Source: Anaerolineae bacterium
GTDB taxonomy: Bacteria > Chloroflexota > Anaerolineae > Aggregatilineales > Phototrophicaceae
Assembly: GCA_022820665.1 (NCBI GenBank)
Contig: JAJEFB010000045.1
Coordinates: forward strand, 94,392 to 158,391
Direction of reading: 5' to 3'
Length of the DNA stretch: 64,000 nt
Below the pieces are notes generated by a model. It saw only the letters and a list, made by a program, of their open reading frames with translations, was not told the origin of the DNA and did not search any database. The position numbers and the translations under genes are program-made. Position 1 is the stretch's first letter. Each line of letters opens with the position of its first letter. Positions 2,239-6,202 of this stretch are shown here, one piece after another.

Positions 2239-2413
2239 AAGGTTTCCGCTTCTAAAATCGAGTGCGCCGAATCATATCCGATGACAGTGATTTATGAAAG
2301 ACTTGAAATCGTTCTATGCCGTGACGTATAAATGGCGAGACGCCTTAGGTCTTGCGACCGATTTTGCCGAAACTCGTATAATATGATGGAAGCCTTTGAT
2401 GCCAGGAGACAAA

Positions 2414-2851
2414 ATGACCGGAGAACAGCGATTCGACCCAATGAAAGAAATACAGAACATTGGCGAGCACATCAGCAAGCAGATTGAAAAAGGTATCCGA
2501 AATGTCACAAGCGGGCCAGAGCAGCTCGCGCTTGATATGTACGAGGCGGAGGATCAACTTGTCATCCGCACGGCGGCCATTGATGGCTTGCTCAAGGAAA
2601 GCATTGAGATCAGCCTCGAAAGCAACGTGCTGACGATCTCGCTGCAAACGGAAGCCGAATCTACGCCAACAACAGCGCGCTATTTCCTGCAGGAGCGACG
2701 CTTTGGCCACGTCAGTCGTTCGGTCGAACTGTCAATACCTGTCAAGGGAAACGAAGCGCGGGCAAAAGTGGAGAACGGCAATCGCCTTGTCGTGACCATG
2801 CCGGTGGATGACAGTCTTTACGGCAATATTACCGTGACCCCGGTTGAATAA
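2414..2851 (+). CDS. Hsp20/alpha-crystallin family small heat shock protein
   Basis: LALDMYEAEDQLVIRTAAIDGLLKESIEISLESNVLTISL ... RSVELSIPV ... NGNRLVVTMP; AGGAG SD before ATG 2414. Confidence 0.85.
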   Translation: MTGEQRFDPMKEIQNIGEHISKQIEKGIRNVTSGPEQLALDMYEAEDQLVIRTAAIDGLLKESIEISLESNVLTISLQTEAESTPTTARYFLQERRFGHVSRSVELSIPVKGNEARAKVENGNRLVVTMPVDDSLYGNITVTPVE

Positions 2852-2900: not shown

Positions 2901-3941
2901 TCAATTGTCCAGATGGCTTAGCCTGGCGAACTCTAATTGCTTGTCGAACTTGTCTAGCAAGGTTTTCTTCGGCTCGTCTTCCAGGAATGACAGTTGAATC
3001 GATCTTCGAGCCAGGTCGACGACATCCGTAAGGTCCAACCCGCATTGCTCGACCGCCATAACGTATTCATCCACAAGAGAGCTCCGGTAAAGTCTTGGCA
3101 TGCCCGAGGCCAAAAGCACTTGAACGTTATTGTCCACAAGCGTTCGCAGAGGATAAGCGGAGACATCGTCGACCAAGCCGCGCCGCAGCGCGCGACTTAT
3201 GGAAACAACAATGGGAGTGCCGGAGTCGGCAAGACTGTTGATCATGTTCGGATGACCGTGGATACCCCAGGTTTCGGTAAGCCGGTGCGGTTCAAGCTCC
3301 TCCAATGCTGACGTCAACCCATCGACGCCCATGCTGCTGCCGGCTTGCGCTACGGTAAAGATGCCCTTCTTGCGAGCGGTTGCGAATGCGCGTTTGAACT
3401 GGCCCACCGGTTGCGCGTCCTCTTCCCCAATCAACCCGAGAGCAACCACGTTTCCACTCTTCGCCGTAGCGCCAGTCGCCCAGCGCGCCACGTCATCGCC
3501 GACTCGTGGGTTGTCCCGTGGAATGCAAAGGATCCAGGACATGTCGACGCCCCAACCCCGCAACGCGCGATCTCGACCGTCGTTGAGCGCGTTGATAAAC
3601 ACATCAATGCTCATCGAAGATTGCTGCATGAATTCCGATGGCGTGACAGCTATTTCAGCATAGCTGACCCCGGCCTTGGAAAGCCCGACGCCGATATCAT
3701 ATACGACCCGGGCAATATCCTCTGGATATCTCACCCAACTTCCGGCGACGGCGGCCAGTTCATCGACGCGCTGATAATCGGGATTGACCAGCATATCCGT
3801 CCAGTATGCAAAATCATCACTCTCTGCGGGAACGCCATTTTGGCGCGCGATCATCAGCAAACCTTCGTCAACGAAGGCGCCGGTCAATTGCAAGTTAAGA
3901 TCCACTTTTGGGATTGCGGCAAAGAATTCGCGTAAGCCCAT
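2901..3941 (-). CDS. Adenosine deaminase-fold protein lacking canonical metal and catalytic residues (putative pseudoenzyme)
   Basis: ADA-like layout (PKVDLNLQLTGAF; ALGLIGEE; FTVAQAGSSMG; HPLPRLL-equivalent AYPLRTLVDNNVQVLLASGMPRLYRSSLVDEY) with ligand positions substituted. Confidence 0.75.
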   Translation of the reverse strand: MGLREFFAAIPKVDLNLQLTGAFVDEGLLMIARQNGVPAESDDFAYWTDMLVNPDYQRVDELAAVAGSWVRYPEDIARVVYDIGVGLSKAGVSYAEIAVTPSEFMQQSSMSIDVFINALNDGRDRALRGWGVDMSWILCIPRDNPRVGDDVARWATGATAKSGNVVALGLIGEEDAQPVGQFKRAFATARKKGIFTVAQAGSSMGVDGLTSALEELEPHRLTETWGIHGHPNMINSLADSGTPIVVSISRALRRGLVDDVSAYPLRTLVDNNVQVLLASGMPRLYRSSLVDEYVMAVEQCGLDLTDVVDLARRSIQLSFLEDEPKKTLLDKFDKQLEFARLSHLDN

Positions 3942-4028
3942 ATCACATTCCTCGTAAACGAATTACCAGCCGGACCAAGAATCGACGAAGCCCGAGGCAA
4001 ACAGGGATGCGCCATGCTCCTTGGGGGC

Positions 4029-5687
4029 TCATTCTGCCGATTCCATGCCGGAACGCATCGCGCTCGCCATACTCGCTTTGGCATCGCGAAAGGCTGCGGA
4101 AGCGCCTACGAAAGCCGAAAACAGCGGATGAGGTCGATTTGGCCGACTGAGAAATTCCGGATGGAACTGAGTTCCCAGCATGAATGGATGGTCCTGCAGT
4201 TCAGAGATTTCTACAAGTACGTTATCCGGGCTCAAACCGCTGAAGCTGACGCCGTTCTTGGCAAAAAGATCTCTGTAAGCATTATTGAACTCAAAGCGAT
4301 GACGATGACGTTCCATGACATCCTTGACGCCATAGGCTTGCGCTGCGAGCGAGTTAGGGACCAGTACACAGGGATATTCTCCCAGCCTCATCGTACCGCC
4401 CAAATCGGTGATCGCGCGCTGCTCGAGCATAAGATCAATGATTGGATGTGGCGTGCTCACGTCGAATTCGGAGCTGTTGGCATCTTCCAACCCGAGTACA
4501 TTACGGGCAAACTCTATGCACATGACTTGCATGCCCAGACATAATCCCAGATACGGCACATTGTTCTCCCGCGCGAACTTGGCCGCGACGATTTTGCCCT
4601 CAATGCCCCGATAACCAAAACCGCCGGGGACCACAACGCCGTCGAGGTCCCCCAGCTTGTCCCGATCTTTGCCTTTTTCCAAGTCGCCAGAATGGATCCA
4701 AACGACCTCGACATCCTGATCCTTTTGAATCGCCGCGTGAACGATCGACTCCTTCACCGACATATAGGCGTCATGAAGCTCCACATATTTGCCCACGATT
4801 CCGATGCGCAGCTTGTCTTTTGCCGACCGAAAGCGCCTTACCAGTTGGCGCCATTCCCCCAAATCCGGCGACGAAGCTTCGATCTTGAAACGGTCGAGAA
4901 TGTAATCGGCCAAACCCGTCTCTTCAATCAGCAAAGGTACGGCATAGATGTTGTCCGCGGTTTCCAAGGGAATGACGGCGTCCTCGTCAACATCGCAAAA
5001 AAGGGCAATCTTGTTGACGATATCATGGTTGACCGGGTGATCGGTCCGAGCGATGATCACATCTGGCTGGATACCTATTCCGCGCAGTTCACGAACGCTA
5101 TGTTGAGTTGGTTTGGTCTTTAGTTCATCGGTAGCGCCGATGTGCGGCAAGAACGTGACGTGAACATACAATGCCTCGCTGCGTTTGAGTTCCGTCCGCA
5201 ATTGACGCAGCGCTTCGAGAAAGGGCAAGCCTTCGATGTCGCCGGCCGTCCCGCCCACTTCGACGATGACAACATCGGCGCCGCTGCGCTGGCCCACCAA
5301 TTTCATGCAGCGTTTGATCTCGTTGGTTATATGGGGAACAACCTGTATCGTGCCGCCGAGGTAATCTCCCTTCCGCTCTTTTTCGATTACCGTTAGGTAG
5401 ACTTGCCCAGCCGTGACATTTGACAGCCGGCTGACATTTTCGTCGACGAAGCGCTCATAGTGTCCCAAGTCAAGGTCGGTTTCGGCGCCGTCAGCGGTGA
5501 CAAAAACCTCTCCATGCTGGTAAGGGCTCATTGTCCCCGGGTCAACATTGAGATAAGGATCCAGTTTTTGGATCGTAACTTTCAAGCCGCGCGCCTTTAG
5601 AATGCGGCCAATCGCCGCGACAGTCAGCCCCTTGCCAACTGAACTTACGACACCGCCCGTACAGAATATGTATTTGGGCTTTACCAT
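4029..5687 (-). CDS. pyrG: CTP synthase
   Basis: MVKPKYIFCTGGVVSSVGKGLTVAAIGRILKARG, LDPYLNVDPGTMSPYQHGEVFV, C-terminal GATase PYLGLCLGMQ. Confidence 0.98.
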   Translation of the reverse strand: MVKPKYIFCTGGVVSSVGKGLTVAAIGRILKARGLKVTIQKLDPYLNVDPGTMSPYQHGEVFVTADGAETDLDLGHYERFVDENVSRLSNVTAGQVYLTVIEKERKGDYLGGTIQVVPHITNEIKRCMKLVGQRSGADVVIVEVGGTAGDIEGLPFLEALRQLRTELKRSEALYVHVTFLPHIGATDELKTKPTQHSVRELRGIGIQPDVIIARTDHPVNHDIVNKIALFCDVDEDAVIPLETADNIYAVPLLIEETGLADYILDRFKIEASSPDLGEWRQLVRRFRSAKDKLRIGIVGKYVELHDAYMSVKESIVHAAIQKDQDVEVVWIHSGDLEKGKDRDKLGDLDGVVVPGGFGYRGIEGKIVAAKFARENNVPYLGLCLGMQVMCIEFARNVLGLEDANSSEFDVSTPHPIIDLMLEQRAITDLGGTMRLGEYPCVLVPNSLAAQAYGVKDVMERHRHRFEFNNAYRDLFAKNGVSFSGLSPDNVLVEISELQDHPFMLGTQFHPEFLSRPNRPHPLFSAFVGASAAFRDAKASMASAMRSGMESAE

Positions 5688-5800
5688 CTCGCTTCTCCCC
5701 TTTGACCCCATTCTCTTGTCGCGCATAAGCTCGCCAATGAGCTATCAATTCACGTTTCGCTACCTGCAAACGGTATCCGTCCGACACCGCAACAGGAAAT

Positions 5801-6202
5801 CTAAATGATTTTTGCCAAGTCCGACGCCGCTCGGCGCATATCCAACAGCAGCAGTCCCAATTTGGCTTCGTCGTTAACGACCGATGTCAGCACGGCTTCG
5901 TCGTTGACAGACATCATAAGCACAAACCCGGAATCGCCCTTGATCATGAGATGATCCAGGCTGCCGCGTCCCAACTCCGTCGCGATTCGCTCGCCCAAGC
6001 CCACCATTGCCGCGCTCATCGCGGACAAGCGCTCATCGTTTACATCATTCGGCATAAACGATCCCATAGTGACGCCCTCGACGCTGACAACCGCGATCGC
6101 TTCCAGTTCGGGGTTCATGGCATGCACTTGGCGCAGGCGCGCAAGCAAGGCATCCGCCTGCAATTGCTCCATCACCCCGCTCCCTTCATTCTCAACAGCC
6201 AC
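5801..6202 (-). CDS. Roadblock/LC7 domain protein
   Basis: Approx. 125-aa Roadblock-like fold: LEAIAVVSVEGVTMGS...MVGLGERIATELGRG...VLMMSVNDEAVLTSVVNDEAKLGLLLLDMRR. Confidence 0.8.
   Translation of the reverse strand: MAVENEGSGVMEQLQADALLARLRQVHAMNPELEAIAVVSVEGVTMGSFMPNDVNDERLSAMSAAMVGLGERIATELGRGSLDHLMIKGDSGFVLMMSVNDEAVLTSVVNDEAKLGLLLLDMRRAASDLAKII

Follow-up and report, generated by a model that had tools for sequence, protein, structure and literature searches.

An adenosine deaminase homologue without its metal site, conserved downstream of pyrG in a family of Anaerolineae

The pseudo-dihydroorotase (pDHO) of Pseudomonas lacks the zinc ligands of its relatives and yet is required for the activity of ATCase (PMC7053772). 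A literature search found no paper on a pseudoenzyme of comparable kind derived from adenosine deaminase (ADA). Here we describe a gene from an Anaerolineae bacterium of the family Phototrophicaceae whose product is almost certainly such a pseudoenzyme, as judged from its sequence and from those of its orthologues. The gene lies in a window of 64,000 nucleotides, which is the whole stretch of DNA that was analysed. Enzymes of the ADA family, numbered here as in mouse ADA, bind their metal through His15, His17, His214 and Asp295, and their catalytic residues are Glu217, His238 and Asp296.

The window protein matches the Pfam family A_deaminase (PF00962) over residues 11-334 with an E-value of 1.1e-43 (150 bits, cut-off 27). 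The score against the NCBIfam equivalog model for ADA, TIGR01430, was 145.7 bits, which is below the cut-off of 216.55, and the match to AMP deaminase (PF19326; 10.1 bits, E = 0.25) was likewise under its cut-off of 27. Among solved structures, phmmer matched ADAs, the best being 6n91 from V. cholerae (E = 3.6e-19). In the alignment, the four metal ligands correspond to N16, Q18, Q199 and G280, in the order given above, and the three catalytic residues to S202, E223 and M281.

A preliminary description of this DNA had recognised an ADA layout with replaced motifs, and PKVDLNLQLTG, QAGSS and ASGMP do align to the HxH, HAGE and (T/S)DDP motifs of canonical ADAs. The codons that it gave for N16 (3896-3894) and Q18 (3890-3888) were correct on re-reading, and so were the intact frame of 346 codons, which has an ATG start, and the two flanking genes with their orientations (Table 1). 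Its equation of RIGHG with WGIHGHP was wrong by a few residues: RIGHG aligns to R220-LTET (RLTET), which places E223 at the position of His238. WGIHGHP is the loop that follows, and relatives do not conserve its His residues. The synteny, the tree and the selection analysis presented below give good support to the central claim of a pseudoenzyme with the ADA fold and no metal site.

Table 1. Coordinates of the genes, motifs and sites at the locus, in window positions
Feature	Position	Strand	Remarks
Predicted ADA-derived pseudoenzyme gene, 346 aa	2901..3941	(-)	Open frame, ATG and ribosome-binding motif; PF00962 match
GAGGA, ribosome-binding-like	3949..3953	(-)	7 nt 5' of the pseudoenzyme ATG; read from sequence
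pyrG (CTP synthase)	4029..5726	(-)	ORF as listed; 87 nt upstream of the pseudoenzyme gene, co-oriented
Roadblock/LC7-like ORF	5801..6202	(-)	First gene of probable operon; conserved order
hsp20-like small heat-shock gene	2396..2851	(+)	Convergent neighbour of the pseudoenzyme gene
HxH metal motif, replaced by N16-L17-Q18	3888..3896	(-)	Alignment
Q199-A-G-S202 in place of HAGE; no metal His214 and no catalytic Glu217	3336..3347	(-)	Alignment
E223 in place of the His238 equivalent; most relatives have Asp	3273..3275	(-)	Alignment
Asp295-Asp296, replaced by G280-M281	3099..3104	(-)	Alignment
Newly fixed basic/aromatic positions, residues 89-192	3366..3677	(-)	Mostly three consecutive outer helices

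From their arrangement, the gene for the pseudoenzyme probably forms an operon with pyrG and with the ORF preceding pyrG, which we take to be Roadblock/LC7-like from a look at its sequence. Using consensus matches only, we found a promoter-like site 5' of the roadblock ORF (6349-6322, (-) strand) and no terminator-like site in the gap between pyrG and the pseudoenzyme gene. The latter is probably the last gene of the operon, since its 3' neighbour is usually convergent across the orthologous loci. The start of pyrG is probably at 5687 (MVKPKY) and not at the end of the listed ORF. The roadblock ORF usually precedes pyrG at the orthologous loci, and its position directly before pyrG is conserved across the order. 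At one locus (L040), the pseudoenzyme gene is followed on the opposite strand by a small GTPase that resembles Ras/MglA, named by a look at its sequence.

Orthologues were present in 29 of the 34 genomes of the window's genus and in 84 of the 98 genomes of its family; one of them, L009, is 60% identical to the window protein. The 83 family copies that could be aligned have all suffered losses and keep between 0 and 5 of the seven catalytic residues, never more, whereas all 56 canonical ADAs from this order that are complete have 7/7, which excludes chance. The full set is present both in the 42 unlinked ADA copies and in 14/14 copies found at the same place in the sister families f3 and f8 (HHHEHDD). 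Wherever the contig was long enough, pyrG was located directly upstream in the same orientation, at distances of 10-150 nt and in one case 279 nt. The linkage to pyrG is older than the loss of catalysis, because f3 and f8 carry a canonical ADA at the same locus, and among the genomes sampled it is confined to this order, since the nearest ADAs from other orders of the class are of the canonical type, with no pyrG nearby. The pseudoenzyme is normally the sole PF00962 member in genomes of the window's genus (exceptions G033 and G021), and is thus not a helper of an active ADA there. The GTDB isolate names of some relatives (COS2_bin_19, APA_bin_42, RHO3_bin_49) presumably denote sponge hosts.

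No copy of the gene was found in 14 of the 98 family genomes. In five of the 14, pyrG was not found either (E <= 1e-100), and the contig is therefore probably missing. The remaining nine contain pyrG and lack the pseudoenzyme gene, and its function is therefore dispensable in some lineages. Five of the nine belong to the window's genus and represent clean gene losses that leave pyrG about 49 bp from hsp20 (L146-L150, corresponding to genomes G003, G007, G030, G027 and G014), while in the four others, from the same family, the gene is absent from the pyrG locus. The five same-genus genomes are 3.2-3.7 Mb in size, which is at the small end for the genus.

We inferred trees from an alignment stripped of the seven catalytic columns. 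All degenerate copies fell into a single clade with maximal support, both in a quick tree (SH-aLRT 100) and in a more careful one (UFBoot/SH-aLRT 100/100), and the transition from intact to degenerate required a single change of state. The equivalents of His238 and Asp296 are kept in 0/83 copies, with one change each, as opposed to 10-11 changes within the clade for each of His15, His17, His214, Glu217 and Asp295. Four members (L042, L044, L049 and L106) keep all four metal ligands without the equivalents of His238 and Asp296 and are candidate metal-binding intermediates. Parsimony thus suggests that His238 and Asp296 were lost first and the metal site later, many times, although many of the inner branches are weak.

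The ancestor of the family and of f3 and f8 already carried a gene for an active, zinc-type ADA after pyrG. On the family stem, His238 was replaced, mostly by Asp, and Asp296, mostly by Met. In the order suggested by parsimony, the metal ligands were then lost separately in many genera, until none was left in the window's species, with the frame, the gene position and the overall constraint retained throughout. By the sequence comparisons, this is an ancient, lineage-specific and lineage-wide pseudoenzyme derived from ADA. At two places in the pocket region basic residues have appeared: the Ser-Asn of the canonical PTSN motif is Arg-Ala in most of the clade (R250-A251, window positions 3189-3194 (-); R250 in 60/83 copies), and the position of His214 (residue 199) is Arg in 17 copies. 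The positive charge of such a residue may substitute for that of the missing zinc. An alternative metal site in the window protein was considered and rejected because no His is conserved within the degenerate clade; the mean number of His residues is 12.1 in the pyrG-linked canonical ADAs and 3.4 in the window's genus.

Overall conservation in the clade is similar to that of canonical ADAs from the same order, with 78 versus 74 positions conserved at >=75% and similar mean entropies. Few of the 346 columns are as relaxed as the catalytic ones (median 2.06 bits versus 0.01, P = 1e-5), and relaxation is greatest where each of the eight barrel strands ends, all around the mouth of the barrel (16/18, 100, 139, 171, 199/202, 222-224, 245-249 and 276-281). 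Conversely, 23 positions are fixed in the clade and not in canonical ADAs, 17 of which are in residues 80-192 (P = 6e-5). Lys or Arg occupies 8 of these 23, as compared with 5 of the remaining 55 conserved sites (P = 0.009). The newly fixed residues at 89-192 are K89, D121, R125, R128, W130, R146, D149, R153, Q177, Q181, R184, K191 and K192, and those at 146, 153 and 184 represent changes from Asp/Glu to Arg. Their spacing is helical (121/125/128, 146/149/153 and 177/181/184/191), they fall within three successive predicted helices or at their margins, and the net charges of the three helix segments have increased by about 1, 2 and 2-4 units. W69 and W130 are invariant.

From this pattern we infer that conservation has moved from the pocket to a basic and aromatic face over the helices at 89-192, the basic residues of which would form a contact face; the new charged residues could alternatively form an internal salt-bridge network. 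A structure prediction for the window protein and five close relatives was poor (pLDDT 48.7, pTM 0.44), and the proposed face therefore rests on sequence periodicity and secondary structure and not on a three-dimensional model. The best PDB matches of this weak model were all chains of the ADA family (E = 1e-11).

Given the new face, the position of the gene and the analogy with pDHO, the explanation that we rank best, and regard as somewhat better than an even bet, is that of a scaffold or regulatory subunit devoid of catalysis, which would use the new face to contact a partner. The protein would act by binding its partner via the basic and aromatic surface, much as pDHO holds the Pseudomonas ATCase together. 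The repurposed scaffold of the preliminary description agrees with this in so far as it was pictured as a structural or regulatory subunit; its other version, a nucleoside-binding sensor, is less supported because the ring of pocket residues is relaxed and the newly conserved residues are on the outer helices.

Such a sensor, in which the old pocket binds a nucleoside, nucleotide or other small molecule without turnover and passes a signal on, either to a partner or to CTP synthesis, ranks second and is in our judgement possible at roughly one chance in a few. Nearly all of the 83 copies retain G172 and E174 in the GxxGxE loop, and 49 of the 53 copies outside the window's genus retain E20, which corresponds to Asp19 of mouse ADA, a residue in contact with the ribose. 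However, E20 is replaced by Thr in the window's genus, neither of the adenine contacts, Glu217 and Asp296, is left, and the pocket positions at the strand ends show the greatest relaxation. Within the genus, N16, T20, W225, R250 and A251 are nearly fixed, and a new pocket could thus exist there.

Less probable by a wide step is a neofunctionalised, metal-independent enzyme with new pocket residues. The preference across the clade for Asp at the His238 position and for Met at the Asp296 position would fit this, and the clade may have begun with an altered metalloenzyme, since the four candidate intermediates keep all metal ligands. No acid, His or Cys of the old pocket is however fixed clade-wide, and it is in the pocket that conservation has dropped furthest relative to canonical ADAs.

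To quantify the selection on the gene, we calculated dN/dS values (Nei-Gojobori) for six close species whose copies retain 0/7 residues. The mean for the pseudoenzyme was 0.155, which falls between the values of pyrG (0.077) and of the roadblock ORF (0.200). The frame is open in all of the orthologues listed, from about 80 species, with mean identities of 42-62% within groups. The repeated erosion of the motifs and the absences described above are what a slowly decaying remnant with a frame open by chance would lead one to expect, but this reading is largely refuted by the dN/dS value, the frames and the newly fixed residues, and we consider it very improbable. The preliminary statement that this is not a decaying pseudogene thus holds, with a conservation on par with that of active relatives. 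Least credible of all is a still active ADA with a metal site supplied by other residues, as the full-length Pfam match is offset by the lack of a conserved His in the clade, the drop in mean His number and the TIGR01430 score under the cut-off.

Returning to the scaffold or regulatory subunit, PyrG is the obvious candidate for its partner because of the probable co-transcription, yet we hold it doubtful that PyrG is the specific one. Equally tentative is the idea of an accessory subunit, evolved from ADA, that would serve CTP synthase or some other enzyme of its pathway. A scan of PyrG sequences, which is a weak test, revealed no substitutions that track the loss of the pseudoenzyme, only family-wide ones that persist after the loss. 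The family-specific residues, several of them acidic, are D171, E374, E422 and R424 (alignment positions), in genomes both with and without the pseudoenzyme. The nucleotide-linked role suggested earlier from the proximity to pyrG is thus borne out as to the linkage, which is real and conserved, but weakened in that the linkage predates the loss of catalysis and PyrG is unchanged where the gene is lost.

Annotation based on Pfam would call this gene an ADA and credit its host with a step in purine salvage, which would be wrong in nearly every genome of the genus that carries it. The locus also offers a natural series from enzyme to binding protein at one fixed position, with active-type positional orthologues in the sister families, forms with the metal site kept and forms that are fully stripped, and suggests that the His238/Asp296 pair was lost before the metal site. 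If the accessory role is true, this would be a second, independent zinc-less amidohydrolase barrel that regulates pyrimidine synthesis, after pDHO and ATCase, and one for which living relatives preserve the steps from an active enzyme, via loss of His238 and Asp296 with the metal kept, to loss of the metal.

Compared with bacterial ADAs (PF00962; PDB 6n91 of V. cholerae), the window protein is alike in length, in full-length alignment and, by sequence and by the weak model, in fold, and retains GxxGxE, YAE, R220 and P282, whereas it lacks all four metal ligands as well as Glu217, His238 and Asp296. Its closest non-degenerate relatives are the pyrG-linked canonical ADAs of f3 and f8 (L056, L058-L063 and L137-L143; 28-33% identity), which share its locus and gene order but have all seven catalytic residues and are acidic at 146, 153 and 184, where the pseudoenzyme is basic. 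The best structural-search matches of its weak model were a COG1816 amidohydrolase and an adenine deaminase (PDB 4gxw and 3rys); these are zinc enzymes, and the 3rys chain has DLHLH-type, HAGE and SDDP motifs intact in most of the seven positions. With pDHO (pyrX) of the Pseudomonas aeruginosa ATCase (PMC7053772), it shares an amidohydrolase-superfamily fold stripped of zinc ligands, a pyrimidine-pathway context and retention as a protein. The two differ in that pDHO is derived from dihydroorotase and has a proven partner in ATCase, whereas the window protein is derived from ADA and has in PyrG a candidate partner. The ADA-derived pseudoenzyme joins the already known amidohydrolase pseudoenzymes.
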